Source of the DNA: a virus
Strand: one strand, 5' to 3'
IMG/VR virus record: IMGVR_UViG_3300023174_008595
Span: 1 to 32,477 of that record
Length of the DNA stretch: 32,477 nt
Every line of letters starts with the position of its first letter. Positions within the stretch are counted from its first letter, which is position 1. Shown here piece after piece: positions 5,677 to 24,231 of this stretch. Below the pieces are notes generated by a model. It did not search any database. It was not told the DNA's origin and was given only the letters and a program-made list of their open reading frames with translations. Made by a program: the position numbers and the translations under genes.

Positions 5677-8600
5677 TTAGTACTTCTTCAGCTTTCCCAC
5701 CAACAAGAAGGTGTCCTGCAATTCATCTGCGCCGCGTCTATAAACGTTCTTGTGCCTCTCCAGCATGTGAGATTCTACGACATAGTTGCTGCCTTTGAAG
5801 TTTGTTTTGCTCGGTATAAGCTGTTCTATGAATGTTGATATTGAAAGATCGAACCATCTATAAAATTCCAAGAAATTTCTAAAATCTATCTTGCTTGAAA
5901 GCCTATTGAAGTAGACGTCTCTAAGCACCTCGAGGCGAGGATAATCAGGAGAGAACATCAGCTCAGGAGATCCAAGTGCATCATTTAAGGGGTCAAGCGA
6001 TGAGAACATTGACACAATATCTTTGTCTAGAGAATCAACAACAGAAAATTCTATTGACAACCTATTGTCATCAATAGGTTCTTCTCTCAAGAACATTTCA
6101 TTGCTTAAGTAGCTTGGAGTTTCGATGGCCCATGGATTTTCTAGAAGATTGACTGAATTTTCAAAACTTCTGAGTCGTATTTTGTCATCTGTTGCAGCTT
6201 CATCAAATGCAGGAGACAAATAAGAATAATTGAACATATCCCCGATTAATGCCCGAGACCCAGATATGAAACCAGTTCCCCGGGAAGAAGACAGAGAAGT
6301 TGAATAATCAAGAAATTCAATTGTTCCATCGGAATTGGGGTATTTGAAAGACTGTTTTTGAAGAGTGTCAATTCTCAACTTCTGGAATGATCCTGACATT
6401 CTATCTACGTAGTTGTAGTTGATGTAAGGATTGTCGACTCCAACAGACTTTGGGTTTCTAACGTGCTCTTTCCATTCGTCTTCTGACATAGACTTCGACC
6501 AGAATTTTAAATTAGATACCCAACCTGAAAAGTCTGTTGTGCGTGCTATGTCTTCAACTTCGACGGTTAAAGAATCGTTTAAAAAACTATATGCTGCCCC
6601 AAAAGGTATTGATTGATTTGGTCCTACACAAATGTAGGCACCAGAGACATTTAATTGAGTTGATCCACTGCGGAATGCATTTCCTTCTGATGCAATTTCT
6701 TCAAAAAAATAAGATGACGTAACATATGTCTCTTTTAAGTCGCCCGACTCAGTCTTTCCTACTCTAAGATAATATGAAGATGAAACGTTCGACTGTATCT
6801 CATCGTTTCTATGACAGCCGAGCGCCACATTCCATCTATCTCCGTCAAATATTCCACCTCCTTCTAAGTCTAGGCTCATTTTTAAGACCGGGGAGCTATT
6901 TGAAAATCCAGGTCTGATAAAAGCTTGAACTCTAGCAGCTTGTCTTGGGTGATCCACAAATTGCGTTGCTATTACATTTGCTATAAGACCAGGTTTACTG
7001 TTTGCAGAACTACCTGTCACTATCATTCTCATAAGAGATTGATTGCCATCTGTGTCTGCAATCTCTAAATATTTTTTAGGAGGTATTTTGAAGGATGCTT
7101 CAATGTTCCAAGACCCTGAAGTCAACAGGTTGTCATAGGTCCACGTTGTTCCTATCACATCATTGGTTATTGGATCTTTTACAAATGTCCCTCTAGGTCC
7201 TGGGAATCCTGGTTCTGTTCTTGGGGCAAAAAGGTGTGGAGTTATGACAAACGATGTCGCAGAGACGTCCACCATTGCACCGGGTTCTATTCTTTTTTCT
7301 CTTGATGTTGTTAGCTGTCTTACGGTTGGCCCACCATACTCTCTTATCTTAAGTGAGTTGTCTGGATCTATTCCAGCAGACCTTAAGAACGATCTTATGC
7401 TGTGTTGTGTTCCTTTTGATCTGACTATGTCGGGAAGGTTTACAAGTATCCTTCGGGTCAAGACTGATTGTATCTTTTTTAGGCTCATGCTTATATTTGA
7501 CAGATCTTGAATGTTATCACCATCTGCAAATTGCTCCACTGACGCATGAGAAAAGAATTTTGGAAGATGAAACCCATAATATCGGACCATGTCTTCAACA
7601 AAGTTGTCGGGGACTGTGTCGTTTAGCTCATATCCAACAGTTCGAAGAGTTGCAAATGAGTCTATGTAGGTCTTAAGGTCGTCAAAAAATTTTGACCAGA
7701 TGTACAAGAACGACAAGATGATTTGAGAAGACCCCCAGTTTCCTTGTCCGGGTATTCCTTCTCCACCAAATGCATCTCCTGATTGACCCTCGACTTCTTC
7801 AAATCCATCTTGAAGAGCTCCTTCCAAGAGATAATGCCGAGGGACTAACCTCAAGATGTTGTTAGGATTTGCCTTATCATAATTGCTTGCAGATATGAGA
7901 AGACTATTGTTGAGATCTATTATTTCTTGATATGCGGGAAATAGAATTATCTTAAATTCATCTCTCTCATTTGTCATTATAGGAGAAGAAATAGCCCTTA
8001 AATTGTGCTTAAAGTTATTAATGTTTGAATGTAAAGAATTTCCTGAGCTATCTAGCACTATCGAGTCAATGGCTGTATTCCCATTTATCGAAAGAGAGCC
8101 TGAGGGTTCATTAAATCTGTAATACAGCTTCAGCTCAGGAGTTGAATAGATTCCTCTCGATGCATACAGTTTTTGAGTTTTTGAATCTCTGACTAAATGA
8201 AACACTCTCATTTCATCCAGGCTTCCGCTGAACGTTTGAACAGGTGTCACAAGTATTTGCTTTGAATAGAATGAGCTACCTGAGCCTATCACAAAATCTG
8301 AGTCATCTATATCTAGTTTTCCAAAATTTATTCTCTCATAGCTCTGAGACACTAGCTGTTCATTTAGATAGAAATCTAAAGTATGTCCCACTGAATCTTG
8401 CTTATTTAGTGTCAGCCCCAAGTGGTTGAATAAGCCTTTCTTTAGCTCACAAGACACAGAATTCCTGGAAGATCCAGAAGATATGCAGAAAGTTGCTGTT
8501 GCATATTCCGGAGAAGAGCTTTGCTGCAAAAAGAGAGTCATTTCGTCCTGCTGAGAAGACGACTTCTGAAATATTACCTGAATATCATTTGCTATAGTTG

Positions 8601-9141
8601 GAAGAAATACATGAGCCTCAAACGTGAAAGAACTCTCTTCTGAAGGATTAATAACGCTTTCACCTTTGTTATTTTTTGCCAACTCAGGATACAGGTTTCC
8701 CGATTTGTCTTTTACAGCTATCCAGTTTCCTTTGGTTGATGAAGGCACTTCACCAACTTGAGTACCAGAAAAATGAAGAGATCCTCCCCATTTAGGAAAA
8801 GAGTCAAAGATCCATTTTTCAAATCCAGTCATTGAATCAAAATAAGATTCAACTTCAATTAAGCTACCGTCGAAGGGATAGTTGTTTATAAGCTTATTAA
8901 ATGATTCATTTACCTTTACCTCCGCCGAAGAGAAAAAGCAATGATTTTCAAACTTAGACCAGTCGAGGTTGAGCTGTTGAGTGCTTTTTAGAGGATATCC
9001 AAGTGGATCATATTTAAAAGAACTAGAGTTTCTTTGATTTCCGTCAACGTAGAAGTCAGAGTTCGACATCTGGACAGGCCTGGAGTCTTTAATTGCAGAC
9101 TTCAGAAATTGAGGTACATATTGATTTGATCTTACGGCCAT
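5677..9141 (-). CDS. Giant baseplate/tail protein: tail-protein-I-like core with two LamG-like domains
   Basis: The product has 1154 residues. Residues about 168-350 look like a LamG/concanavalin-type domain (SFTFEAHVFL, LDFYLNEQLV, FSGSLDEMRVFH, LKLYYRFNE). Residues about 475-605 are helical and resemble P2 gpI / T4 gp7-type wedge proteins: WSKFFDDLKTYID, PDNFVEDMVRYYG, and LPDIVRSKGTQHSIRSFLRS, the latter recalling the KGT-x-x-x-(I/L)R signature of that family. A second LamG-like segment spans about 680-905 (GSWNIEASFK to SGWVSNLKFWSKSMSEDEW). The C-terminus (FRNFLEFYRWFDLSISTFIEQLIP) is helical. Gene order after spike, gp25 and gp6/J supports the tail-I assignment. The ATG has AAGG 5 bases upstream. 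LamG modules usually bind glycans or proteins, so this protein may both build the wedge and contact the cell surface. The fusion is unusual; domain edges are approximate. Confidence 0.82.
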   Translation of the reverse strand: MAVRSNQYVPQFLKSAIKDSRPVQMSNSDFYVDGNQRNSSSFKYDPLGYPLKSTQQLNLDWSKFENHCFFSSAEVKVNESFNKLINNYPFDGSLIEVESYFDSMTGFEKWIFDSFPKWGGSLHFSGTQVGEVPSSTKGNWIAVKDKSGNLYPELAKNNKGESVINPSEESSFTFEAHVFLPTIANDIQVIFQKSSSQQDEMTLFLQQSSSPEYATATFCISSGSSRNSVSCELKKGLFNHLGLTLNKQDSVGHTLDFYLNEQLVSQSYERINFGKLDIDDSDFVIGSGSSFYSKQILVTPVQTFSGSLDEMRVFHLVRDSKTQKLYASRGIYSTPELKLYYRFNEPSGSLSINGNTAIDSIVLDSSGNSLHSNINNFKHNLRAISSPIMTNERDEFKIILFPAYQEIIDLNNSLLISASNYDKANPNNILRLVPRHYLLEGALQDGFEEVEGQSGDAFGGEGIPGQGNWGSSQIILSFLYIWSKFFDDLKTYIDSFATLRTVGYELNDTVPDNFVEDMVRYYGFHLPKFFSHASVEQFADGDNIQDLSNISMSLKKIQSVLTRRILVNLPDIVRSKGTQHSIRSFLRSAGIDPDNSLKIREYGGPTVRQLTTSREKRIEPGAMVDVSATSFVITPHLFAPRTEPGFPGPRGTFVKDPITNDVIGTTWTYDNLLTSGSWNIEASFKIPPKKYLEIADTDGNQSLMRMIVTGSSANSKPGLIANVIATQFVDHPRQAARVQAFIRPGFSNSSPVLKMSLDLEGGGIFDGDRWNVALGCHRNDEIQSNVSSSYYLRVGKTESGDLKETYVTSSYFFEEIASEGNAFRSGSTQLNVSGAYICVGPNQSIPFGAAYSFLNDSLTVEVEDIARTTDFSGWVSNLKFWSKSMSEDEWKEHVRNPKSVGVDNPYINYNYVDRMSGSFQKLRIDTLQKQSFKYPNSDGTIEFLDYSTSLSSSRGTGFISGSRALIGDMFNYSYLSPAFDEAATDDKIRLRSFENSVNLLENPWAIETPSYLSNEMFLREEPIDDNRLSIEFSVVDSLDKDIVSMFSSLDPLNDALGSPELMFSPDYPRLEVLRDVYFNRLSSKIDFRNFLEFYRWFDLSISTFIEQLIPSKTNFKGSNYVVESHMLERHKNVYRRGADELQDTFLLVGKLKKY

Positions 9142-10675: not shown

Positions 10676-12550
10676 TTACGTATTGGATACGCACCTTCCA
10701 ACTATGTTGATATCCGGGTATTTAAACTCAAAAATTCCTCCATCAGGCGGGTATATCATCTGATTTCTTGTGTTTAATTGAGGATCAAACGATATTGATG
10801 AATATTGCCTGTTTTTTATTGTTCCGTGTAAGTTGTTAAACTTGATGGAATCAACAGAGATTACTCCCGGTTTTGAATATATGGTTGATATTACATCGGA
10901 GATAATTAGCGGTTGTCCTATGTGAAAGTTGTCAACAGACAACTGTGCACTAAGATCAGAAATGATGCTCTGCAACAAAAGGGACTTATTGAGAGAAGGA
11001 TCTGCAACTATTTGAAAGAATAGCTCTAAGTTTATTATGGAAGCATCAAATACGTCCAATGCATCTGACACCATTCTATAAGAATTTAGATATCTCTTTA
11101 GATTGATCTTTAGGCTGTCAGGGGATGTGATCAACTCTCTGTCGATGTTTCTTGAGATTATGTAAAGCCTTGATGCAAGCGGGTTGTTCGGATTTCTCGT
11201 CACAGATGCCCTGTACACTCTGCCAAAGTTGCTTGGCATAGTATAGATTCTTGCAAGAAGATCTTCTTTTGTGACTATTCTTTCCTGAGAATTTTTTATT
11301 GAAGGCACAAGAGCAAGCAATTCCTCTGCAGTTGGGGCATCTTCGCCACCTGCAGCAGCTGCAGGATTGGATGCCTCAATGGTGCTTCTGATCTGAGCCT
11401 GCTGTCCAGCAGTAGGGTTTTCAGGAAAAGAGACAAGAAGGTCTGATATATTTGTCACTGTTCCTGGAAGAACATTGTGTGTCAATCCTCCGCCACTTCT
11501 GTAGGTTATAGTTAAAGTCGTATTGCTTGCTGCAACTCCTAAGGTTGACGTTTGCAACAGCTTTTGAGGATTAAGAGACACTCTTGAAAATGTCTGTGAA
11601 TAAGGAAGGGGTATTGCAAATTCGGATGGGTCAGGAATAATATCGTCTTCAAATGTCTCGGCTGAACCTCCGCCAAAAACAAGTGTAGATCTTCTGTCTA
11701 TTAGTGACACCTGCCTTAAAAATCTGTAAGGAGCAGGTATTATCTTTAGATTGTCCTTGACGAGAGTGTCTATTCCAGACTCATATGAATTACTTGTGAC
11801 ATTTTTATAAACAACGTCATGAGTTAGATTGTCGACTTCATAGTACACATTTCCAAAACCGTCGACGACGCTTACGATCTGAGTTATGTCTGTTTGTGAC
11901 AAAGTTATGCCTCTGAATTGGAAAAAATCTCCAATGTCAAATGTTTCTGTTGTCAAATTTCCTGACGCACAAACCCCTCTTTTCCTTAATATTTTTGTGA
12001 CTATATTTCCGTTAATTCTTCTTCCGTTTGCAACATCTACGGTCGCTGTATCCACAGATATTTGTCCTGTGACAGGGTCCGACTTCCAAAATTTTATGTC
12101 TTCAAGTAGCGTGAAATTGATTCCATTTTCTGAAGTAACAATGGTGTTTGTTAGGATTGTTGGAAGAAGAACAGGATCAACCCTTAGTGTTCCATCATTT
12201 AAGACGGGTATTTCTGCATAGAAATCTACTGACACTATTGCCGAAGAAGCTCCGGCTATTTTTATCCCTGAATTTCTAAGTATACGTTCTACATTTGCAG
12301 TTTCGACGACTGTGTCACTGTTAAGCTCATTGTACAAGTGATCCATGTAAAAAGACATGTTGTCTCCAACGTAGGCCGCCATATCAAGGAAAAGACCTCC
12401 CATCGAAGACTCAGAGAAATCTTGTATCCTGTCTGGATAGTATTGACGGGCGTATTCTAAGAGAACACTTCTAAAGCTGTCAAAATCTCTTGCGAGATAG
12501 TTTTTTTGCCTAATTGACTTTAGGGCTGTTTTATTGTCGTTTATAGCCAT
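10676..12550 (-). CDS. Baseplate wedge protein, T4 gp6 / P2 gpJ family
   Basis: The product has 624 residues from ATG 12550. The N-terminus has the signature of T4-type gp6 relatives: KNYLARDFDSF, LEYARQYYPDRIQDFSESS, GGLFLDMAAYVGDNMSFYMDHLYNE. The C-terminal part (from KEDLLARIYTMPSNFGRVYRA to about residue 590) matches baseplate J: SLKINLKRYLNSYRMVSD, DASIINLELFFQIVADPS, QPLIISDVISTIYSKPGVISVDS. gp6/J proteins form the ring of the baseplate wedge around the hub. An in-frame TTG at 12565 would add five residues, but a GAGGGTG element sits 6 bases before the ATG at 12550, which decides the start. An insert rich in Ala, Pro and Glu near residues 375-415 (NPTAGQQAQIRSTIEASN, AAAAGGEDAPTAEELLAL) is less conserved. 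Very secure. Confidence 0.93.
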   Translation of the reverse strand: MAINDNKTALKSIRQKNYLARDFDSFRSVLLEYARQYYPDRIQDFSESSMGGLFLDMAAYVGDNMSFYMDHLYNELNSDTVVETANVERILRNSGIKIAGASSAIVSVDFYAEIPVLNDGTLRVDPVLLPTILTNTIVTSENGINFTLLEDIKFWKSDPVTGQISVDTATVDVANGRRINGNIVTKILRKRGVCASGNLTTETFDIGDFFQFRGITLSQTDITQIVSVVDGFGNVYYEVDNLTHDVVYKNVTSNSYESGIDTLVKDNLKIIPAPYRFLRQVSLIDRRSTLVFGGGSAETFEDDIIPDPSEFAIPLPYSQTFSRVSLNPQKLLQTSTLGVAASNTTLTITYRSGGGLTHNVLPGTVTNISDLLVSFPENPTAGQQAQIRSTIEASNPAAAAGGEDAPTAEELLALVPSIKNSQERIVTKEDLLARIYTMPSNFGRVYRASVTRNPNNPLASRLYIISRNIDRELITSPDSLKINLKRYLNSYRMVSDALDVFDASIINLELFFQIVADPSLNKSLLLQSIISDLSAQLSVDNFHIGQPLIISDVISTIYSKPGVISVDSIKFNNLHGTIKNRQYSSISFDPQLNTRNQMIYPPDGGIFEFKYPDINIVGRCVSNT

Positions 12551-12571
12551 TTCATTCACCCTCAATTATTG

Positions 12572-13039
12572 TCATATCACGTAAAGCATCACCTGAAGCC
12601 CCTTGCGTGTGACTTCTAATGCGGGTATGTTGTAAGTTATGTTTATTCTTAATATTCCTGTATTGTAGTTTTCGTTCCTGTCGATTATAGACGAGTAATC
12701 TTCAAGCTCAATAAAAGGCATCCATTTCTCAACAGCATTCCTGATTCTATCAATTGCTTCATTGTCAAAAGACTCTTGTGAAACAAATTCTGTAGTCAAA
12801 GGTTTAAGATTTGCGCCAAATTGAAATAATCCTAATCTTTCGCCCCAATTAGTCTGCAAAAGATTTCTTAAATTATCTGCGAACTGCTCTTCTAAACTGT
12901 AATTCATGGCCAAGATGCCGTCTTTGGTCGCAATTGAAAGAGGGGTTTTTATGCCATAAGGCACCGGAGATGATACTAGCACCTCTTCTTTTTCTTGCTG
13001 GCGTGTCTTTCCTGCGCTTTTAAAGCTATATGTTGCCAT
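12572..13039 (-). CDS. Baseplate wedge protein, T4 gp25 / P2 gpW family
   Basis: The product has 155 residues, normal for the gp25-like (GPW_gp25) family. Recognisable features are YSLEEQFADNLRNLLQTNWGERLGLFQFG (helix followed by the R/E-x-x-x-x-FG core), KPLTTEF, then NEAIDRIRNAVEKWMPFIELEDYS and a final strand pair GILRINITYNIPALE. gp25 binds the sheath-facing side of the wedge and links gp6 to the hub and sheath. It lies directly upstream of gp6/J, the order seen in P2 (V-W-J-I) and many myoviruses. The ATG at 13039 follows an 88-base gap shared with a divergent plus-strand gene, so it may have its own promoter. Secure. Confidence 0.93.
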   Translation of the reverse strand: MATYSFKSAGKTRQQEKEEVLVSSPVPYGIKTPLSIATKDGILAMNYSLEEQFADNLRNLLQTNWGERLGLFQFGANLKPLTTEFVSQESFDNEAIDRIRNAVEKWMPFIELEDYSSIIDRNENYNTGILRINITYNIPALEVTRKGLQVMLYVI

Positions 13040-15230: not shown

Positions 15231-16043
15231 TCAATTGTCTTTATAGTCTGACTTCGATTTTTTATATCTCCTTTTTATGGACTGCATTGCAGTTGTCAAC
15301 TGTTTTGGAGATAAACCTGAAAGCTCTCTCATATAGAGAAGAACAGCACTTTTGTTGAGAAGATCAATGTCATCAATGTTTTCAAAAATTGTGATGATGG
15401 CATTGATGCAAGTCAACTCATTTTCAGTTTTTACTTTTGACCTAATGTCATATAAAAGATTTACTGTATTTTGTGTAAAGAATTGTGTCTCAAATAAAGT
15501 AGGTTCTGGCATTACAATGTTATGCTCTTCTATTATCAAAGACTCATGAGAAGTAAGTGTTGCTGGATCATCTAAGCTTACATTTTTCTTTGTACGTTGA
15601 GCCTTTTGTTTTGTCCTAATGATTAACCAATTTTTGGCAACAACATTGAAGTAGGAAAATGCGTTAGTTCCTCTTGAGGCATCGAACTTGTGAATCGTTT
15701 CAAACAAGAAGTTGATACAATCATTCTTCAGATCATCATATGTGTCATGCATTCCAGTGAACTTGTGGATGTTTATTAGATTTTCTACAAGCTTCTTAAA
15801 GGCAGGCAATATCTCTTGGACATAGAGCTTGTCTTTGTCTTTTTTTACAGAAGAGTTCTGGTAATTAACGATTGCCTCTTGTGTCCCCGCATTGAAATAC
15901 AGCTTTAAGTTAATTTTTTCTGTTTTTTCTCCTGCTGTAGATTCGGGCGATTGTTCAATCTCAACGACGGCTTCTTCTGACAAAGCAATTGAAGTCTTTC
16001 GTTTTCTAGATCTCCTCTCCGGATTTTTCTTTTTTTCTAACAT
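15231..16043 (-). CDS. Phage late-type RNA polymerase sigma factor (gp55-like)
   Basis: The product has 270 residues. Residues about 75-150 match sigma region 2: EILPAFKKLVENLINIHKF, DDLKNDCINFLFETIHKFDASRGTNAFSYFNVVAKNWLI, which parallels the housekeeping pattern DLxxEGxxGLxxAxxKFDxxRGxxFSTY with a helix for polymerase binding and -10 recognition. The C-terminal LLYMRELSGLSPKQLTTAMQSIKRRYKK resembles a reduced helix-turn-helix, as in region 4. The N-terminal 45 residues are basic then acidic and look disordered. T4-type phages use gp55 to direct host RNA polymerase to late promoters, and this protein likely drives the virion genes downstream. It is longer than T4 gp55 (about 185 residues). 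The ATG at 16043 lies 6 bases after the upstream stop. Sigma identity is fairly sure; late function is inferred. Confidence 0.8.
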   Translation of the reverse strand: MLEKKKNPERRSRKRKTSIALSEEAVVEIEQSPESTAGEKTEKINLKLYFNAGTQEAIVNYQNSSVKKDKDKLYVQEILPAFKKLVENLINIHKFTGMHDTYDDLKNDCINFLFETIHKFDASRGTNAFSYFNVVAKNWLIIRTKQKAQRTKKNVSLDDPATLTSHESLIIEEHNIVMPEPTLFETQFFTQNTVNLLYDIRSKVKTENELTCINAIITIFENIDDIDLLNKSAVLLYMRELSGLSPKQLTTAMQSIKRRYKKSKSDYKDN

Positions 16044-16049
16044 AGTCTT

Positions 16050-16346
16050 TCAATTTTCTTCCAACGCTATAGAATCATCTAAAATTTTTGCAACAACAAG
16101 CACTGAGTCTCTTGCAACCGCTATGTCTCTTACGAGCTCCTTCACCAAGGGTTCGTCAGAAAATATCTCTATTTTAGACTTCTCTAAGATTCTTTCATGT
16201 TGCTCCACAAGAATGTCAAGTGACGTTTGTATTGCCTCTTGCAGCTCATCCATTTTTTCAATATGTGCCAAATTGATTTGCACACTATAAAAGAGTGCAG
16301 ATGCACAGGCACAAAGAGCAGTTGTAAGAGCTATCGAAAGTATCAA
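16050..16346 (-). CDS. Small membrane-anchored helical protein, unknown function
   Basis: The product has 98 residues. The N-terminus ILSIALTTALCACASALFYS is a single hydrophobic segment, probably a membrane anchor or uncleaved signal, followed by a soluble helical region rich in Glu, Asp and Leu (MDELQEAIQTSLDILVEQHE, FSDEPLVKELVRDIAVARDS). The start is TTG in a TTGA overlap with the upstream glycosyltransferase stop, with AAAGG 6 bases upstream; the first ATG would remove the membrane segment. The segment is not a clean lipobox. Similar small phage proteins with an SDEP-V motif are common and uncharacterised. It could act at the host membrane, but nothing shows lysis function. Confidence 0.65.
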   Translation of the reverse strand: MILSIALTTALCACASALFYSVQINLAHIEKMDELQEAIQTSLDILVEQHERILEKSKIEIFSDEPLVKELVRDIAVARDSVLVVAKILDDSIALEEN

Positions 16347-17536
16347 ATCATACCTTTTGTAATTTCATTATAAAACTTTTCGATATTCTCGTGTGAGAAC
16401 TCTTTTATTATTTTTGACTGCAATTCTTTTGCCCATTCTTTTGGTAAGGCAGATGAATTTCTAAATTTCAATACTTTTCTCTTGAAATCATTTTCATCTG
16501 CAATTGCCCACTTTGATCCTTTCATAAAGATCTTGTTGTCAATTCTTGTTGGATGAATTTCCGTCAACTTATAGTCAACTTCTATAAACTTTCCTAGCTT
16601 CAAGAAGTCTATATGACCAGACCATCCAGTTGCTATTACTGGTAGACCTGAAGCTGCTGCTTCCAATATAGGAAGTCCGAACCCCTCTCCTTTTGTCAGT
16701 GAGATTAATGCTTTAACTTTTGGATGACTGTAGAGTGAAGCAACTTCTTCGTCGGTCATGTCTCCATGAATTAAATGCATCCTTGGGAACGGACTTTTTC
16801 TGACTTCACGGACAAGATTTTCAAATGTTTGTGTGATTAATTTTCTGTCTATGCAGGTATTTCTACCTGAGTTTGTTTTTAGGATTATTCCTACGTCTTT
16901 ATCATTCTTAAATGCTTCACAAATCCACTTAATCGTGTAAAAGATGTTTTTTCTTTCATTTTCTGGGTTGTTCCCAGTAATCTGTCCAAACAACAAAAAG
17001 TTAAAAGAAGTTGAAAAATCTAGTTCGTCAATCTTGTTTTTCTGGTCTTTTGTTATTGAAGAATTGTAAGATTCAGGTATGACATGAACTGGAACGTTGA
17101 TAACTCCTGAATTAATGATTAAATTCTTGGAGTGATTAGAAGGAACTATTACCATGTTCATTCTATTACAGAATGTAACCCATTCAGGATTGCAGACATC
17201 TGTTTCTACTCCTGCTGTTATTCCTATGTTGCAAGGAGAAAGACTTGAATCCCATTCGTTAGGAAGCTGCAATTGAACTGTTGCATCATATTTCCTTCCG
17301 TTTGGGTCAACTGTTTTTTCCATTATTTTCCCAATAAGACCTTCTTGTGCTTCACTGTCTATGAGCCATGGGGTGTCTCCCCAGGGAAGGGCTTGAACTT
17401 CTACATCTAAGTCAGCCCTGTTTAATAGCCAAGAAGCAATTTGTCGAGAGTGAACTCCGTACCCTGATTGAGTCAAGACCGGTCCGCGGAGAAGAACTTT
17501 TTTCTTTTGAGTTAGTCCAAAAAAATAATTGTTCAT
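16343..17536 (-). CDS. Glycosyltransferase, GT-B fold, GT4-like
   Basis: The product has 397 residues from ATG 17536. It has the two-domain GT-B layout: an N-terminal acceptor half with LLRGPVLTQSGYGVHSRQIASWLL, and a C-terminal donor half with FNFLLFGQITGNNPENERKN, MHLIHGDMTDEEVASLYSHPKV and the E-x7-E-type motif EGFGLPILEAAASGLPVIAT, which binds the sugar nucleotide. These retaining transferases add hexoses or related sugars at the cytoplasmic side. An ATG 18 bases further upstream (17554) is in frame, but 17536 forms an ATGA overlap with the preceding gene, the commonest junction in this window, with GGAG upstream. It pairs with the next GT4-like gene, possibly by duplication. Donor and acceptor are unknown. 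Confidence 0.88.
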   Translation of the reverse strand: MNNYFFGLTQKKKVLLRGPVLTQSGYGVHSRQIASWLLNRADLDVEVQALPWGDTPWLIDSEAQEGLIGKIMEKTVDPNGRKYDATVQLQLPNEWDSSLSPCNIGITAGVETDVCNPEWVTFCNRMNMVIVPSNHSKNLIINSGVINVPVHVIPESYNSSITKDQKNKIDELDFSTSFNFLLFGQITGNNPENERKNIFYTIKWICEAFKNDKDVGIILKTNSGRNTCIDRKLITQTFENLVREVRKSPFPRMHLIHGDMTDEEVASLYSHPKVKALISLTKGEGFGLPILEAAASGLPVIATGWSGHIDFLKLGKFIEVDYKLTEIHPTRIDNKIFMKGSKWAIADENDFKRKVLKFRNSSALPKEWAKELQSKIIKEFSHENIEKFYNEITKGMI

Positions 17537-18783
17537 AGCTCTGTTATTCTCCATCTTGACGGATTATTCTTCCATAATTTAATTGTTTTTTCAAGTGATT
17601 CGTCCCAGCTGGAAACAACCTTTGATAGATCATATTCTTTTTGAACTCTCTCCATTGCTTTTCGACCCAGAGATTCTCTTGACTCAGGTCCCATCTTATA
17701 CATTTTAATGAATGCATCTCTTAAAGTTTCATGAGAAATAAAGTCTTCATAGATGTAAGGAACCATGTGGTTTCCAACCATTGTTCTCACTTCAGGGTCA
17801 AGCCCTATTCCGACTTGCTCTCCCGAGTCAGGATCTTCAACCTGTCGCGTAAGACCGCCGGTCTTGATGGCTATGACAGGCTTTCCGCACATTGCCATTT
17901 CTAATGTGGGAAGACCAAATCCTTCATTACAGCTTCTATTCACGATTGTGTCACAGGCATTATAGAGAAGATTCATCTCATTAAAACCAATCCTGTCTTT
18001 AGAAAAGACAACATTGTCTTTCAGGGAAAGGATGTCGATCACTTGATGTAGATTTGTTCCTTCTTGATCCATAGGATCTGTGTGCATAACAAGGGTCGCT
18101 TTTCTGTGACCTTCTGTTCTCTCTAGCTCGTCCACAAACATCTTCCAAGATGCCAATATATCGCTTGGCATTTTTCTTCGAGCATTCCTCGAGACGTAGA
18201 GGCAGGTGAAATGATCTGCCCTGTTTTCTCCAATGATCTTCTTTTTTAATGCCAGTTGATCTTCTTTTGGAAGAGGATGGTATAAATCTTTTGGAACTGC
18301 ATGAGGAATGTATCCTGTCTTCTCAGGAAATCTCTCTTTGACCATCTCATAAGTCGGATAATTAATGCAATTGATCAAATCATTTGATTCATATAGAGGC
18401 CTATTAAATTCAGGCCACGGTGGATTATCCCAAAGGTGCCAATAGACTATCGGGCAGATCTGATGGATTTCATCTTCCATTTCCCAGGTCCAAATAAAAA
18501 ATCTTGGATCTGTGAATAGAAATAGAGCATCAGGGCGTACTTGCGCCAAAGTCTTTCTTAAGAGAGCTTTGTCTCCGAAGCCATTGGTGGGCTTTATGAC
18601 AAAATCTGGATTAACTGTCACGATGTCATAATTGTCGTGCCTAATGGCTCCTCCAAAGCACTTAAAACTATATTTCCCAGTGTTTATGAGCCCCGTTATG
18701 AGCCACCGCGCTTGTGTCCCTACTCCTGAAGTAGAAAGGGGGTGATCTGACAAAAATAATATTGTCTTTTTTTGATTCTGCAT
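17533..18783 (-). CDS. Glycosyltransferase, GT-B fold, GT4-like
   Basis: The product has 416 residues. The N-terminal domain carries the glycine-rich acceptor loop (LFLSDHPLSTSGVGTQARWL), and a segment with PIVYWHLWDNPPWPEF follows. The C-terminal domain has FTCLYVSRNARRKMP, DNVVFSKDRIGFNEMNLLYNACD and the donor motif NEGFGLPTLEMAMCGKPVIA followed by TGGLTRQVEDPDSGEQVG. It is probably a retaining GT4-type enzyme using a nucleotide sugar. The ATG at 18783 is separated by 45 bases from the upstream nuclease gene, so this gene starts a short unit with the next GT and the sigma block. Its location away from the main glycan cluster, next to the sigma factor, is curious. Specificity cannot be read from sequence. 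Confidence 0.9.
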   Translation of the reverse strand: MQNQKKTILFLSDHPLSTSGVGTQARWLITGLINTGKYSFKCFGGAIRHDNYDIVTVNPDFVIKPTNGFGDKALLRKTLAQVRPDALFLFTDPRFFIWTWEMEDEIHQICPIVYWHLWDNPPWPEFNRPLYESNDLINCINYPTYEMVKERFPEKTGYIPHAVPKDLYHPLPKEDQLALKKKIIGENRADHFTCLYVSRNARRKMPSDILASWKMFVDELERTEGHRKATLVMHTDPMDQEGTNLHQVIDILSLKDNVVFSKDRIGFNEMNLLYNACDTIVNRSCNEGFGLPTLEMAMCGKPVIAIKTGGLTRQVEDPDSGEQVGIGLDPEVRTMVGNHMVPYIYEDFISHETLRDAFIKMYKMGPESRESLGRKAMERVQKEYDLSKVVSSWDESLEKTIKLWKNNPSRWRITEL

Positions 18784-18802
18784 TGTCTCTATATTACCTA
18801 AA

Positions 18803-18830
18803 AACGAAAAGTTGTAATAAAAGTTTCGTT
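18803..18830 (-). terminator. Weak hairpin at the 3' end of the nuclease gene
   Basis: AACGAAA (18830-18824) and TTTCGTT (18809-18803) form a 7-base perfect inverted repeat around a 14-base loop, followed by more Ts, overlapping the stop codon of the Cas4-like gene. The stem is AT-rich and the loop long, so it may be only a weak Rho-independent terminator or chance. Confidence 0.25.
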
Positions 18831-19641
18831 AAGTGCAATGCTCTGTATTTCTGTATTCACAGTACGTGCATGAGTCACGATTCTTCAGAGCAATTCCACG
18901 TTTGACTGAGGTAATCATGTTGCTGACTACCTTAAGAGACCTCTTGATGGGAACCTCCCCCATTGAGACGCAGAATAGTTCGCAGTGTTGCCCAGGCTTC
19001 GCTGATTTTTTGAGGATAGCGAAGGCGCATCTAATGTCCTTGAGCGGAACATGAGGATTTTTCTGATGCCAATAGTTTTTGTAGAGAGCCAGCTGCGCCT
19101 TGACCATTTCGTCAGAGCGCTTTTCTTTTCTCCACCCATTTGCAGACGTCTTCCAGTCTATGATCCAATAGAGGTCTTCACCTCGCTTACCTTTGCACTT
19201 GATCACACCATCGATGAAACCCTTGAAGGCGTGAGGATGTCCCTCTACCGTTTCATATAGGGAATGCTCAGCATCAACCACGGTCCATTCAGGAAACTCC
19301 CTATCCAGGAAGGCAGGTACCTCGGAGAGAATTACTTCAGACTCTATCTTGGCAACCTTTAATGCTTTTTCTGAGAATTCTTCTTGACCGCTGTGTTTGG
19401 ACCAAGACTTATCGAGTGCATCGTTGCACAACTTCACATCCATCTCTCGAGTGAGCAAGTACTTCTCGCAGGAAGCATGGACTGCTGTACCGAACTCAAG
19501 CACAGGCGAAGGCTTGAAGAAATCAATCTTCTTTACATGTGTGAGATGATGCCTATAGGAGCAATCCTTCCAGGTCTTCACCTCAGAGAAAGATACGTGA
19601 GGTTTTCCCGTCGGAAGGATTTGAAAGATTGATTCTTGCAT
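18829..19641 (-). CDS. Cas4/RecB-like PD-(D/E)XK exonuclease with Fe-S cluster
   Basis: The product has 270 residues, of the PDDEXK_1/Cas4-type nuclease fold. Seen in order: a first Cys, C27 (WKDCSYRHHLTHV); the His of motif GTAVH (H55); the acidic motif GFIDG (D144); IIDWKTS (D162 and K164), the D-x-K active site; Q183 and Y187 (QLALY), the QxxxY motif; and C258, C261 and C269 at the C-terminus. The four Cys match the 4Fe-4S arrangement of Cas4 and AddB. Such phage enzymes degrade or process single-stranded DNA ends in replication or recombination. No CRISPR genes are nearby, so a Cas4 immunity role is unlikely. The ATG at 19641 lies in a strong inverted repeat and has no obvious ribosome binding site. 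The gene looks GC-richer than the flanking glycosyltransferases. Confidence 0.88.
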   Translation of the reverse strand: MQESIFQILPTGKPHVSFSEVKTWKDCSYRHHLTHVKKIDFFKPSPVLEFGTAVHASCEKYLLTREMDVKLCNDALDKSWSKHSGQEEFSEKALKVAKIESEVILSEVPAFLDREFPEWTVVDAEHSLYETVEGHPHAFKGFIDGVIKCKGKRGEDLYWIIDWKTSANGWRKEKRSDEMVKAQLALYKNYWHQKNPHVPLKDIRCAFAILKKSAKPGQHCELFCVSMGEVPIKRSLKVVSNMITSVKRGIALKNRDSCTYCEYRNTEHCT

Positions 19642-19661
19642 GGTAGATCAATACTACCATG
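19639..19661. promoter_or_regulatory. Inverted repeat covering the nuclease start codon
   Basis: CATGGTAG (19639-19646) and CTACCATG (19654-19661) form a perfect 8-base inverted repeat with a 7-base loop. On the minus-strand mRNA the 3' arm contains the nuclease's ATG, so the hairpin would hide the start codon; as DNA it could be an operator. No ribosome binding site is visible upstream of that ATG. Confidence 0.45.
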
Positions 19662-19676
19662 GTGTGAACCAATAGT

Positions 19677-20420
19677 TCAAATGCTAGACTGGGCGACATT
19701 CAGAGAAGTTGATTCTCTTTGTATGTCAATTCCTAAGTCTCGAAAAACTTCTTTTGTGACGAGATAGACCTCAATATTTGGATTGCATTCTTTGATTGCA
19801 CTGAACTTGTCTCTCTGTAATTCGTTAAAGAAAGCTCCTTTTACATCTACATAAACGTCCATTGCAGGAATATAAAAGTCTGGATGATACGATCTTTCAG
19901 TCTCTCTGTAGAAATATTTGATCGTTCCTCTGTGAGCTTCATATTCTATGTTGAGTCTGTCCATGTGTTGAGCAAAGACAACTTCCCACGTTCCCTGGAG
20001 CTTGACAGTAGAATTATCTGGTTTTGTGTGGACATACCATTTGCAACGTCCAACAGGAACATGATCAAATTTTCCTTCTGCCCAAGCTTTTCTAACATAC
20101 CTTGAAGTTCTTTTTGACCATTCAGGGTCTGTTGCAAACTTATGACTTCTTGTTTGACCCTGTCTCTTTGCAACATCAGGTTTCTTCATGCCGTTCTTGT
20201 CGCCGCTGTTTATCTCTCGTTCTGTTGAAGTCTTACTGATCTTTTCTGCCCATTCAGGATGGGTCTCCTTTGTTCGATAGACTTTTCCAAACGAAGGATT
20301 GCCGCTTCCTACGAAAGATCGGTTAATGCAGTCTCTTGAACAATACTTCTGTTTTCGAAGTTTATAGTTGACTTCAAAGATGCAAGAACATCCCTTGCAT
20401 GTAAGATTTACTTTAGCCAT
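19677..20420 (-). CDS. Free-standing homing endonuclease, NUMOD3 plus PD-(D/E)XK/EDxHD-like
   Basis: The product has 247 residues from ATG 20420. The N-terminus is a likely zinc finger (C8, C11, C27, C31: CKGC and CSRDC). NUMOD3-type DNA-binding motifs follow at GSGNPSFGK (39-46) and GDKNGMKKPD (73-82). The catalytic half has GTWEVVFAQHMD (E146), SYHPDFYIP (H179, D181) and VYVDVKG (D192, K194), a pattern of PD-(D/E)XK or Vsr/EDxHD-type phage homing nucleases. An in-frame start at 20483 would make it overlap the dehydrogenase by 38 bases and is less likely. No clear ribosome binding site precedes 20420; TATATGTATAC upstream might be a promoter. It is a selfish mobile gene inserted between the dehydrogenase and the Cas4-like nuclease. 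No intron is evident. Confidence 0.8.
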   Translation of the reverse strand: MAKVNLTCKGCSCIFEVNYKLRKQKYCSRDCINRSFVGSGNPSFGKVYRTKETHPEWAEKISKTSTEREINSGDKNGMKKPDVAKRQGQTRSHKFATDPEWSKRTSRYVRKAWAEGKFDHVPVGRCKWYVHTKPDNSTVKLQGTWEVVFAQHMDRLNIEYEAHRGTIKYFYRETERSYHPDFYIPAMDVYVDVKGAFFNELQRDKFSAIKECNPNIEVYLVTKEVFRDLGIDIQRESTSLNVAQSSI

Positions 20421-20445
20421 AAAGTATACATATAGGGCATGATGG

Positions 20446-21417
20446 TTACTGTTTATCCTTTTTTTCAGAGACTGCTCTTCCAATTAGATTTTCCCAGTCA
20501 CGCTCTGGTCTTACTTCAAGATTTTTTACCCAAGACCCATCCATAACGGGTGTGTCTACATTAAGGTCGTCAGCAACTTTGATCATTGCATTTAAATCCT
20601 TGACAAAACAATGTCCCCCGAACCCACGATGACCATCAGGCCCAGGAACTGACCAGTGGCTGTCTCCCAACCTCTTGTCATATTTCGCATATTCGACCAC
20701 CTTGTCATAATCCACATTTAGACCTGAATTATCTAGGGCTTCACAGATCTGTGCCATCTCGTTGGCGAAGGCCACCTTTACAGTGAGGAAGTTATTAGTC
20801 ATGTACTTCACCATTTCAGCAGTCGTTGAAGACGTTTTTATGATGGGCACTTGTGGAAATGCAGCCTGGCATATCTGTTTGACAGTATTTACCCATGGTC
20901 TCGGACCACCAAGAATAATCCTGTTCTGATTTCTCATATCGTTCAGAGCATTTGCTTCCGTGAGAAATTCTGGATTAAAGATGACTCTGAGTCCTGTAGA
21001 TTCGTACTTCTTGTTCCACTTCTCAGTAGATCCTGGTGGGATCGTTGACTTAACGACGGCGATTCTATCTCCGTCGATGCTTGATAATTCATCAAGAACA
21101 CCTTCAACTATGCTGAGGTCCGCAGAACCGTCTTCATACATTGGGGTCGGAAGACACACGAAATAGACTTTGCTAAAGTTTAAGTCTTCTTCACCTTCAA
21201 GAAGAGAGACAAGAAGACTGACTGATTCCTTTGGTTGCTGAACATGATTGTTTGTCAAAGAATTGTTGTAGACATTCCCAAGAGGAACCCCACCAGGTGC
21301 AGTCTTGTGTTTTCCCGCCTTGTCATATGTGAATACAGTGAATCCTCTCTCTGAGAAAACCGTTGTGAGAGATCCACCAACAAAACCTTGTCCAATGACT
21401 GCAATCGACTTCTTCAT
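20446..21417 (-). CDS. UDP-glucose/GDP-mannose 6-dehydrogenase family, short form
   Basis: The product has 323 residues. It carries the NAD-binding Rossmann start AVIGQGFVGGS (residues 6-16), FVCLPTP (86-92), VVKSTIPPGST (121-131), FNPEFLTE (147-154), the central helix EMVKYMTNNF (201-210; K204, N208) and the catalytic Cys in GFGGHCFVKD (C270). Such enzymes oxidise the C6 alcohol of UDP-glucose (or a similar nucleotide sugar) to the uronic acid. The usual C-terminal nucleotide-sugar-binding domain (about 100-130 residues after the Cys loop) is missing; the protein ends soon after NLEVRPERDWENLIG. It may be a naturally short phage form rather than a broken gene, since the frame is intact. The ATG overlaps the fucose-synthase stop (ATGA). 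The substrate is uncertain. Confidence 0.85.
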   Translation of the reverse strand: MKKSIAVIGQGFVGGSLTTVFSERGFTVFTYDKAGKHKTAPGGVPLGNVYNNSLTNNHVQQPKESVSLLVSLLEGEEDLNFSKVYFVCLPTPMYEDGSADLSIVEGVLDELSSIDGDRIAVVKSTIPPGSTEKWNKKYESTGLRVIFNPEFLTEANALNDMRNQNRIILGGPRPWVNTVKQICQAAFPQVPIIKTSSTTAEMVKYMTNNFLTVKVAFANEMAQICEALDNSGLNVDYDKVVEYAKYDKRLGDSHWSVPGPDGHRGFGGHCFVKDLNAMIKVADDLNVDTPVMDGSWVKNLEVRPERDWENLIGRAVSEKKDKQ

Positions 21418-22328
21418 ATTCCTCTAACGTTCGGATAGTTTTTTACAAAAAAATCTATAGAAGATTCTAAGCCCACTGAGAGAGTAGTGTACTTAATCTC
21501 ACACCCGAGATCCCTCAATTTATTGTTGCTTGTGGGCTTCCTAAATTGACCTTCAAGCTTTGATGTATCGAACTTGATTTGCCCCTTGAAGCCCATGATT
21601 CTTCCGATCTCACGAGCGACGTCACCGATAGAGACCTCATCTGTATTACCGATGTTGACAGGGTCTGAATCATTGTAGTTCTCAGCACACCACCAGATGA
21701 TTTTTGCAGCGTCCTCTGAGAACGTGAACTCACGGAGAGGCTTACCTGAACCCCATACAGTAACATCAGTCCCAGCCAAGTGGGCCTCGTAAAACTTTCG
21801 AATAAGCGATGGGATTACATGCCCATTGTTTACGTCGTAATTGTCGTGTGGTCCATACAGGTTGTTGGGAACCACTGTAATGAAGTTGCATCCCCACTGT
21901 TGCCTGTAGGCACGAGATCCCACGTCAAGCATCCTCTTGGCATACGCATATCCGTAGTTCGAAGGGTGGGGAGGTCCGTTGTGGAGTTGATCCTCTGTGA
22001 TGGGATAGTTAACGTATTGAGCGTCTGGATAGATGCATGTGGAGAGGATGGAGACAAGTTTCTTGACGCCGTTCTCTCGTGCTGCCTCGAGGACGTTGTT
22101 CGCTATGTCGATGTTGTCTCTGTAGAAGTCTCCTACGAAATCTGTGTTGCCTTTCACACCTCCCACTTTTGCCGCGGCATTGATCCATAGGTCGTTATGA
22201 AAGCTCGTTGAAACTATCTTCTTCGTTAAATCTCCGTAACGACGGCTGTGTTCGAAAACTTCGGTCTTAGAAGTTTTTGATAAAGCCTTTCCCAGAAGTC
22301 CTTGGGAACCAAATATCGTTGCCTTCAT
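21414..22328 (-). CDS. fcl: GDP-L-fucose synthase
   Basis: The product has 304 residues, usual for the family. It performs the epimerisation and reduction of GDP-4-keto-6-deoxymannose to GDP-L-fucose. Seen: the nucleotide-binding start TIFGSQGLLGKAL, INAAAKVGGV (50-58), the catalytic Ser and Cys in LSTCIYP (S96, C98), the YxxxK pair Y127 and K131 (YGYAYAKRM), NNGHVIPSLIRKF with the catalytic His, and GSGKPLREFTFSEDAA, a signature of fucose synthases. It is coupled by ATGA overlap to the dehydratase upstream that makes its substrate. Like its two neighbours it is GC-richer than the downstream cassette (for example 30 G/C in 21961-22020). Confidence 0.95.
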   Translation of the reverse strand: MKATIFGSQGLLGKALSKTSKTEVFEHSRRYGDLTKKIVSTSFHNDLWINAAAKVGGVKGNTDFVGDFYRDNIDIANNVLEAARENGVKKLVSILSTCIYPDAQYVNYPITEDQLHNGPPHPSNYGYAYAKRMLDVGSRAYRQQWGCNFITVVPNNLYGPHDNYDVNNGHVIPSLIRKFYEAHLAGTDVTVWGSGKPLREFTFSEDAAKIIWWCAENYNDSDPVNIGNTDEVSIGDVAREIGRIMGFKGQIKFDTSKLEGQFRKPTSNNKLRDLGCEIKYTTLSVGLESSIDFFVKNYPNVRGI

Positions 22329-23293
22329 TTTGACTCTTTCTTGAGGTCAGATTCATACATCATTCTAACCAGATCTTCAAAGGAGTGCTTGGGCTTCCAG
22401 CCTAATATCTTGTTCGCTTTCGAAGCATCTCCTTTGAGATGAGGTACCTCGTGAGGTCGATAGTACTTTGGATCTGTCTCTACGTACTTCTCATAATTAC
22501 CTAGCCCTGCAATTTCAAACGCTAGTTCAGCAAACTCTTTCACAGAGTGACACTCTCCCGTGGCAACGACGTAATCGTCAGGATTTTCTTGCTGTAACAT
22601 CAGCCACATTGCTTCGACGTAGTCACCTGCAAATCCCCAGTCTCTTACGGCATCAAGATTTCCAAGCTTGAGAACTTTCTGTTTTCCAGTTTTGATTCTT
22701 GCCGCTGCTTGAGTAATCTTTCTGGTCACGAAGGTCTCACCTCTCCTGGGCGACTCGTGGTTGAAGAGGATGCCTGAGGATGCATGCATTCCATAGCCTA
22801 GTCTATAGTTCCTCACAATATTGTGACCAAATAATTTGGCACATGCATAAGGGGATGCAGGCGTCATTCTAGTTTCTTCATTCTTCAACTCATCAGTATT
22901 ATCGCCATACATTTCTGAAGATGATGCCTGATAAAATCTTGATTTTGGACATACATTTCGACATGCTTCAATGAGTCGCATTGTTCCCATTGCAACTGCG
23001 TCTACTGTCTCTTCGGGAACGTCGAAAGAAGTTCTCACGTGACTCTGAGCTGCAATATTATACACTTCATCAGGCTTGTAATCATGGAGAACTCTATACA
23101 TTGAGCCTATGTCGTTCATGCTACCATAGACCATGGAGAAATTTCCATTGTCATACAGGTGATCAACATTTGACGTATTAATCACCGACGTCCGTCTCTT
23201 TAGACCTATCACTCTATACCCTTTGGAAAGGAGTAGTTCTGCTAAGTAAGATCCGTCTTGTCCCGTAACTCCTGTTATTAATGCTGTCTTCAT
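22325..23293 (-). CDS. gmd: GDP-mannose 4,6-dehydratase
   Basis: The product has 322 residues. It converts GDP-D-mannose to GDP-4-keto-6-deoxymannose, the first step to GDP-fucose. Seen: TGVTGQDGSYL (7-17, GxxGxxG), IAAQSHVRTSF (80-90), SSSEMYG (124-130) with catalytic Ser/Glu, the Y149-x3-K153 pair (SPYACAKLF), LFNHESPRRGETFVTRKI, LKLGNLDAVRDWGFAGDYVEAMW, and DPKYYRPHEVPHLKGD near the end, all standard. GDP-mannose itself must come from the host, since no mannose genes are visible. Its ATG at 23293 directly follows the TAA of the decayed glf frame, suggesting glf was once translated just ahead of it. Confidence 0.96.
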   Translation of the reverse strand: MKTALITGVTGQDGSYLAELLLSKGYRVIGLKRRTSVINTSNVDHLYDNGNFSMVYGSMNDIGSMYRVLHDYKPDEVYNIAAQSHVRTSFDVPEETVDAVAMGTMRLIEACRNVCPKSRFYQASSSEMYGDNTDELKNEETRMTPASPYACAKLFGHNIVRNYRLGYGMHASSGILFNHESPRRGETFVTRKITQAAARIKTGKQKVLKLGNLDAVRDWGFAGDYVEAMWLMLQQENPDDYVVATGECHSVKEFAELAFEIAGLGNYEKYVETDPKYYRPHEVPHLKGDASKANKILGWKPKHSFEDLVRMMYESDLKKESK

Positions 23294-23597
23294 TTACCGA
23301 ATTCTTTTCTCAGACACGTGAAGTGTAGATCCAACCACTTGATGCATGTCTCAATATTTGTACTCAGCTAATCTTCCACCAAAGATGAAATTTGTACACG
23401 ATAACGAAAGATCTTGTAACTTCGTTGTACCTTGTAGAATTTTTCTTCTCCTGCTGGTATAGAAAAGAGTGGACGCTCTGGTTATGTTGGGGGAAAGAAA
23501 TCTCCCCCTCATGCTTATTGTAAATGTTGACTTAAAATGATAAAATGACATGAACATATTTTCCAAGCTGTATCTTCTTTGATCGTGCTGCAACTAT
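23294..23597 (-). pseudogene. glf: Remnant of a UDP-galactopyranose mutase gene (3' end)
   Basis: This 304-base gap holds a decayed gene. On the minus strand it reads NFIFGGRLAEYKY, then a TGA (23353-23351), then DMHQVVGSTLHVSEKRIR and TAA at 23296-23294, right before the gmd ATG. FGGRL-x-x-YKY-x-DMxQV is the C-terminal FAD-region signature of UDP-galactopyranose mutases. Upstream of it the frame no longer resembles the family; in another frame RPLFSIPAGEEKFYKV looks like the family's PYYP-type segment, which suggests frameshifts. Only roughly the last 50-60 codons are recognisable of about 380. The 80-residue open frame here (23593-23351) is therefore probably not a real gene. Confidence 0.65.
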
Positions 23598-24230
23598 TTA
23601 GACTTCATCGTGATTTTGACTTCTTAATAAGAAAAAACCATTTCCTTTTTCATAGTTCGACCAATTGTCTTTGATTCCGACAACTCTATAGGAAAAATGT
23701 AATTCACTAAAACCTGATTCCGAGAAAATTTTCATCCACCAGTCCTTGTCTTCTCTTATGACGTGTGTGATATCATTTTCATATTCTTCTATGATATATT
23801 TTCCATTAAATCCTAGAGGAATAATCACCACTAGTTTTTTAGTTATATTTGAAAATTTTTTCAGTACGTCTTTTAGATCTTCGTAATCAAGATGTTCAAG
23901 AACATCTTTGCATATAATGCAATCATGTTTTTCGTTGTAAAAGTCTTCATTGAGCAATGACAATCTATCTTTTATTAGAGGATCTGAATTCTCTATCGCA
24001 TATTCACTGATGTCTATACCGACACAATCATAACCTAGCAAAAACATAGCTTTGACAAGAAATCCTTTTGCGCATCCAAAGTCAACGATCTTGTCACTTT
24101 TCGACAAGCCTGCGAAATTTATAAGAGACTCACACATTTTAAGAGTTGGAGACTCAAGCCATCGGTAATTTTCATACCCACTTATTTTTTTCTCTACTCC
24201 TCTTTCATAATAGTCTTCATTGTATTTCAT
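23598..24230 (-). CDS. Class I SAM-dependent methyltransferase
   Basis: The product has 210 residues from ATG 24230. It shows motif I DKIVDFGCAKGFLVKAM (47-62), the acidic residue ending strand 2 in GIDISEYAIENS (D73), and motif KDVLEHLDYEDLK (108-120) of the Methyltransf_11/23 type. The N-terminus NEDYYERGVEKK and ENYRWLESP resemble small-molecule or sugar methyltransferases found in glycan loci. An upstream in-frame ATG at 24248 lies inside the radical SAM gene; a GAGGAG element 10 bases before 24230 supports the shorter form. Position directly after the radical SAM gene, two bases from its stop, suggests they act on the same substrate, perhaps a sugar or a nucleotide-sugar. Acceptor unknown. 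Confidence 0.85.
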   Translation of the reverse strand: MKYNEDYYERGVEKKISGYENYRWLESPTLKMCESLINFAGLSKSDKIVDFGCAKGFLVKAMFLLGYDCVGIDISEYAIENSDPLIKDRLSLLNEDFYNEKHDCIICKDVLEHLDYEDLKDVLKKFSNITKKLVVIIPLGFNGKYIIEEYENDITHVIREDKDWWMKIFSESGFSELHFSYRVVGIKDNWSNYEKGNGFFLLRSQNHDEV

Positions 24231-24231
24231 G

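Follow-up and report, generated by a model that had tools for sequence, protein, structure and literature searches.

The window analysed here is one viral record, 32,477 bases long, and encodes a 1154-residue protein in which a baseplate-like part and lectin-like domains occur together, which raises the question of whether carbohydrate-binding modules can be built into the baseplate wedge itself and where in the wedge protein they would lie. The first-pass annotation had proposed a core at residues 475-605 similar to P2 gpI and T4 gp7, with LamG-like segments before and after it. Our preferred reading, to which we assign a probability of roughly 0.6, is a BW3/gpI-like wedge protein carrying two inserted LamG domains, for which contact with glycans is the leading putative function (Table 1). 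The open reading frame on which the annotation was based is real, being located on the minus strand, starting with ATG and remaining open across the matched stretch in all 85 relatives, eight of these being truncated at the 3' contig end.

Table 1. Features of the wedge gene and of its upstream neighbours in the window
Feature	Residues	Positions	Strand	Evidence
Whole gene, gpI/BW3-like wedge protein with two LamG-like insertions	1154 aa	5677..9141	-	Open reading frame, translation, homologues
Second part of the gpI-like core	1025-1132	5746..6069	-	C profile in 81/83 distant rows; hhalign to the immuto core
LamG2 and following strands, main part of the site-2 insertion	612-975	6217..7308	-	Predicted beta strands; tandem LamG alignments; hhalign to distant site-2 inserts
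First part of the gpI-like core	404-608	7318..7932	-	K profile in 83/83 distant rows; 0/200 shuffles as good against gpI
KGT motif, in register with KGT of P2 gpI	576-578	7408..7416	-	Alignment, hhalign register
LamG1, site-1 insertion	123-398	7948..8775	-	Pfam Laminin_G_3; predicted PAPP-A LamG fold, Z 20.6; short site 1 in distant rows
Conserved N-terminal helical block with FSSAE and GFEKW motifs	52-122	8776..8988	-	High conservation; distant-family profile match
Neighbour p501, distant relative of a Mel-JY01 CBM96-like protein	501 aa	9158..10663	-	hhalign; 80/80 family loci
gp6/J-like baseplate wedge protein		10676..12565	-	phrog_10646 E 3e-9, phrog_219 E 3.1e-8
gp25/W-like baseplate wedge protein		12572..13039	-	Pfam GPW_gp25 E 1.1e-6, over the cut-off

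A first scan with the protein as query returned 7 loci, and a second scan with the alignment of these loci returned at least 470 relatives among 598 matched stretches in IMG/VR, the best 80 of which were kept. Some of these relatives lie on contigs of 298, 309 and 369 kb, so that at least some belong to jumbo phages. Among annotated phages, the sole direct match is LR756508.1 (484 kb), whose protein led in turn to homologues in Microcystis phage Mel-JY01 and Flavobacterium phage immuto, annotated as hypothetical in both of these isolated phages. A scan from the LR756508.1, Mel-JY01 and immuto homologues gave at least 573 relatives among 600 stretches, of which the best 80 were used to build the distant set, and a scan with the immuto homologue alone gave 21 loci. 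The loci are partly redundant, 69 of 86 proteins being left at 90% identity. In addition, four loci (L086-L089) were obtained from a genome scan, one of them (L086) being an incomplete homologue carried on a 6.6-kb contig that was assigned to a Rhodospirillales bin and the other three matching only about 80-130 residues near the end of LamG1. The 1154-residue protein has no match in PHROGs, and searching PDB sequences with phmmer and with profiles gave nothing relevant, with ribosomal S7 at E >= 0.6.

The first lectin-like domain is recognised by both sequence and predicted structure. Pfam Laminin_G_3 matches residues 169-318 (E 5.4e-7, 30.3 bits against a cut-off of 27.6) and is found in all seven members of the first alignment. 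The AlphaFold2 model of the whole protein, based on a 67-row alignment, has a mean pLDDT of 79.6 and a pTM of 0.64, with values of 88-96 by ten-residue block over residues 161-320. A VIA comparison of this model aligned residues 117-391 with the LamG domain of PAPP-A (Z 20.6, 208 residues, 2.9 A), and approximately the same segment with pentraxins and laminin G domains (Z about 15-17). The structure prediction thus agrees with the LamG-like character that had been proposed for the first segment, and the predicted LamG/pentraxin fold of LamG1 (approximately residues 118-398) is secure.

The second domain, LamG2, has no Pfam match in the window protein, and Laminin_G_3 is matched by the LamG2 region at E <= 0.1 in 4 of 41 window-family slices (the raw count is 5 of 42, one row being the full-length window protein, which matches by LamG1). 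However, tandem LamG pairs of laminin and neurexin align over both LamG segments in Foldseek and VIA. These VIA alignments, made with the model of the whole protein, cover about 330-355 residues with an rmsd of 17-22 A, a high value that is expected if the two LamG domains differ in orientation. Moreover, hhalign links the LamG2 profile to the distant-family inserts at site 2 (97.8%, E 7.6e-13), and the LamG1 profile to the same inserts (95.7%, E 1.1e-8), whereas the LamG1 and LamG2 profiles have no direct match to each other and are linked only through these inserts, 25 of 78 of which contain Laminin_G_3 at E <= 0.1. LamG2 (approximately residues 612-975) is probably LamG-like, as judged from predicted fold and profile links.

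The positions of the two domains were determined by searching all rows with profiles of four conserved blocks (residues 52-122, 404-440, 470-608 and approximately 1025-1132). Block 52-122 ranks among the most conserved parts of the protein, and the N profile of the distant family matches 63 of the 85 window-family rows at E <= 0.01; the profiles of block 404-608 (K) and of residues 1025-1132 (C) match nearly every distant row (Table 1). Site 1, between blocks 52-122 and 404-440, holds 272-317 residues in 84/85 window-family rows and 4-59 residues in 79 of the 83 distant rows, the other four not being measurable. Site 2, between blocks 470-608 and approximately 1025-1132, holds 352-476 residues in 83/85 window-family rows; among the 81 measurable distant rows out of 83, it holds 281-440 residues in 80 and 50 in immuto, a frequency of filled sites that is biased upward because the distant loci are the best matches to a query with a site-2 insert. 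In the 21 immuto-like loci, site 1 has 22-25 residues in all 19 that are measurable, and site 2 has 50 residues in 17, 56 in one and 95-99 in two, one fragment being unmeasurable. Three states are thus present, namely both sites empty (immuto), site 2 alone filled (LR756508 and Mel-JY01) and both sites filled (the window family). The same fusion, which the first-pass annotation had suggested seeking in other phages, recurs in the window family, in which both sites are filled. The simplest reading of the three states is that site 2 was filled before site 1, and the empty site 2 of immuto may represent a loss as an alternative to its never having been filled. LamG1 splits a conserved helical segment just before the gpI-like core.

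The identification of this core comes from profile comparison, predicted fold and gene order. The tripeptide KGT is invariant in the 67-row alignment, and the window protein segment RRILVNLPDIVRSKGTQHSIRSFLRSAG aligns with KRAVIRDAYFIHCHKGTIGAIRRVVEPLG of P2 gpI. When the window-family core and the empty core were each compared with a gpI profile made of 13 gpI sequences (80 nearly identical gpI loci being left out), none of 200 column shuffles was as good for either profile, and the reversed control was low; the hhalign probabilities of these core comparisons are low in absolute terms (1-14%). Residues 1025-1132 match the empty immuto core (hhalign 95.5%, E 1.5e-8). Pfam Tail_P2_I (PF09684) does not match anywhere in the window at E <= 10, and the protein is therefore termed gpI-like, outside that Pfam family. 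The model of the empty immuto core (48-row alignment) has a pLDDT of 64.9 and a pTM of 0.41. Its top Foldseek match is a baseplate chain of a contractile injection system, with an E-value that is not significant (best 1.5). When VIA aligned 294 chains with this model of pLDDT 64.9, baseplate chains took the first five places, from A-1(L) (Z 8.2), a Streptomyces CIS (5.3), Pam3 (4.9), phiKZ (4.0) and phage 7-7-1 (3.8). The best of these is the A-1(L) wedge protein gp32 (8kea_c), aligned over 170 of 190 residues at a Z of 8.2 that is near the level of common arrangements. In the comparison with the whole model, the VIA rows were filled by LamG, so that the core was scarcely probed and the absence of a family from them excludes none.

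As for the gp7 part of the original proposal, the T4 gp7 profile gives no hhalign signal with the core, but gpI and gp7 give none with each other either, which leaves the comparison powerless; T4 gp7 itself is not among the Foldseek and VIA rows listed for the whole model and the empty core. P2 gpI and Tri2 of the R2 pyocin are readily related (E 1.6e-39), Tri2 being PA0619, a pyocin R2 protein. The sequence of A-1(L) gp32, among the named wedge proteins, matches only Tri2, at an E-value of 0.033 and amid chance-level matches.

Taken together, the gpI-like part probably consists of residues ~404-608 and ~1025-1132, and its resemblance to gpI is drawn from a modest profile signal and a low-confidence predicted fold. 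The core first placed at residues 475-605 is thus supported as gpI-like by the KGT register and the shuffles, but it was drawn too short, conserved blocks being present also at 52-122, 404-440 and 1025-1132. Similarly, the LamG-like segments described on either side of the core are both retained, LamG1 by Pfam and fold and LamG2 by tandem alignments and profile, except that LamG2 probably interrupts the core rather than following it. The predicted strands 598-602 and 1027-1033 border the site-2 insert, and their counterparts in P2 gpI come soon after the KGT helix, so that LamG2 probably occupies the tip of a beta hairpin in the core. The core could instead belong to another peripheral baseplate protein that is no counterpart of BW3/gpI, the KGT likeness being fortuitous, as the missing Pfam match, the low-confidence fold and the weak hhalign probability would allow; we consider this improbable in view of the 0/200 shuffles, the five baseplate chains at the top of the fold comparison and the gene order.

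In the direction of transcription, this order is gp25-like gene, gp6-like gene, 501-residue neighbour and LamG wedge gene. By tblastn, the gp25-like gene is present in 79/80 family loci, and the gp6-like gene and p501 in 80/80, a count from which five loci are left out for being the most distant or incomplete (L005, L006, L007, L086 and L090). The wedge setting suggested in the first-pass annotation is supported by this arrangement, in which the gene follows the gp25-like and gp6-like genes in nearly every family locus. The immuto homologue likewise lies downstream of annotated baseplate assembly and baseplate wedge genes, with two hypothetical genes between. The p501 protein matches the corresponding neighbour protein of Mel-JY01 (hhalign 98.8%, E 1.2e-16), which matches CBM96 below the curated cut-off; no Pfam match to CBM96 was found in p501 itself across 29 family members. 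Downstream of the LamG wedge gene lie four large genes without clear family.

Within the preferred reading of a BW3/gpI-like wedge protein, the gene product would be the outer wedge protein (BW3, the counterpart of P2 gpI) of a contractile-tailed and probably jumbo phage. The need to assemble with the gp6-like and gp25-like wedge proteins would have preserved its core, and two LamG domains would have been gained within the protein, LamG2 at the core hairpin tip and LamG1 between the helical segments before the core. In phage Mu, the BW3 protein is described as lying at the baseplate periphery and docking a fibre, and inserts in BW3 could therefore be exposed (PMC11915804). Should this baseplate have six wedges, like those whose structures are solved, as many as twelve LamG domains would surround it in each virion.

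Several known systems resemble this arrangement in part. P2 gpI and Tri2 of the R2 pyocin share the KGT in the same register and the gene position after gp25-like and gp6-like genes, but P2 gpI has 176 residues and no insertions, as compared with 1154 residues and an intervening p501 gene in the window; A-1(L) gp32 differs in having 191 residues and no LamG. Gp119 of the Bacillus phage Vp4 (Herelleviridae) is a BW3 wedge protein reported to bind bacterial cells, its BW3 part being flanked by two folds predicted to bind carbohydrate (PMC11406892). These folds are described as CBM16-like and xylanase-CBM-like rather than LamG, a comparison that is made by description. In AlgoCIS, the wedge protein Alg11 is described as carrying two carbohydrate-binding modules in one additional domain, and the gp7-like part of Alg12 is termed a re-engineering hotspot (PMC8894135). 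Compared again by description, the Alg11 modules differ in forming a spike cage, in an extracellular injection system and not in a phage. Variants of the wedge protein GP075 of phage K8 bind a surface glycan, the core oligosaccharide; this protein is gp6-like, and the available text on its point and duplication variants reports no lectin domain (PMC9887876).

Carbohydrate-binding modules within a wedge are thus already published, for Vp4 Gp119 (BW3) and AlgoCIS Alg11. In the literature searched, most subscription papers lying outside it, no LamG domain is described in a gpI/gp7-type wedge protein, nor did we find the LamG version with its two fixed sites and graded series. In one paper that mentions LamG together with baseplate, the LamG is described in other proteins (PMC8541153).

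The rates of change bear on what the LamG domains may do. Mean identity to the window protein within the family is about 49% for LamG1 and 47% for LamG2 (46-49% for the LamG parts). The two core parts reach 57% and 68%, and the N block 66%. The four downstream proteins have mean identities of 32-36% over partial coverage and were found in fewer loci, a lower count that contig ends explain in part. The LamG domains therefore change slightly faster than the wedge core but much more slowly than the genes downstream, and are not hypervariable, unlike host-range parts. Receptor choice is a poorer fit to this slow change than a structural contact or a conserved glycan contact of a weak or broad kind.

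A structural role, in which the LamG domains would make protein contacts between wedges or dock peripheral proteins encoded downstream without binding any glycan, is a possible alternative to be taken seriously. Animal LamG folds often bind proteins, and the domains here evolve slowly and vary little in length, in contrast to the downstream genes with their 32-36% identity. An insertion domain in another wedge protein, gp31 of A-1(L), is described as holding the long tail fibre (PMC10966104). On the other hand, a lectin-like fold is predicted at two sites, a CBM96-like relative adjoins, and Vp4 Gp119 with its CBM folds is described as binding cells (PMC11406892). The LamG domains might also bind sugars that the phage would attach to its virion proteins through the sugar genes of the window, which between 16343 and 23293 encode glycosyltransferases, epimerases and a UDP-glucose dehydrogenase, a suggestion that we consider highly improbable, as no evidence of virion protein glycosylation was found.

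Glycan binding by the LamG domains, as the preferred reading has it, is plausible. We would put forward tentatively, as something that may quite possibly be the case, that they make weak and broad contacts with surface glycans which aid the fibres in adsorption. It is a more doubtful suggestion that, across a widespread clade, the outer wedge protein could serve as a chassis in which two fixed sites were filled stepwise, giving a conserved ring of putative low-specificity glycan holders that would keep working while the fibre genes change. The series of empty, singly and doubly filled proteins, two of whose three states are represented among isolated phages, makes the effect of LamG on adsorption testable, and a role can be proposed for a family of at least 470 IMG/VR members, the immuto and Mel-JY01 homologues of which are annotated as hypothetical.

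Some further components were observed around the baseplate genes. In the window, a minus-strand region near them (16343-25587) codes for two glycosyltransferases, a UDP-glucose dehydrogenase, two nucleotide-sugar epimerases, a methyltransferase and a radical SAM protein, and an exonuclease gene sits within this sugar/modification cluster. Just upstream of the baseplate genes, also on the minus strand (15231-16043), lies a gene for a late sigma transcription factor-like protein (phrog_234, E 7.4e-7). An additional 358-residue ORF is present between the gp6-like gene and that of the 501-residue protein in one relative (L005:5259-6335), and the motif at its start reads like that of what is presumably a GIY-YIG homing endonuclease. 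Finally, a protein end with GSTGPQG-type collagen-like repeats, cut by the end of the locus, was identified downstream of the baseplate genes in another (L004:18406-19507).
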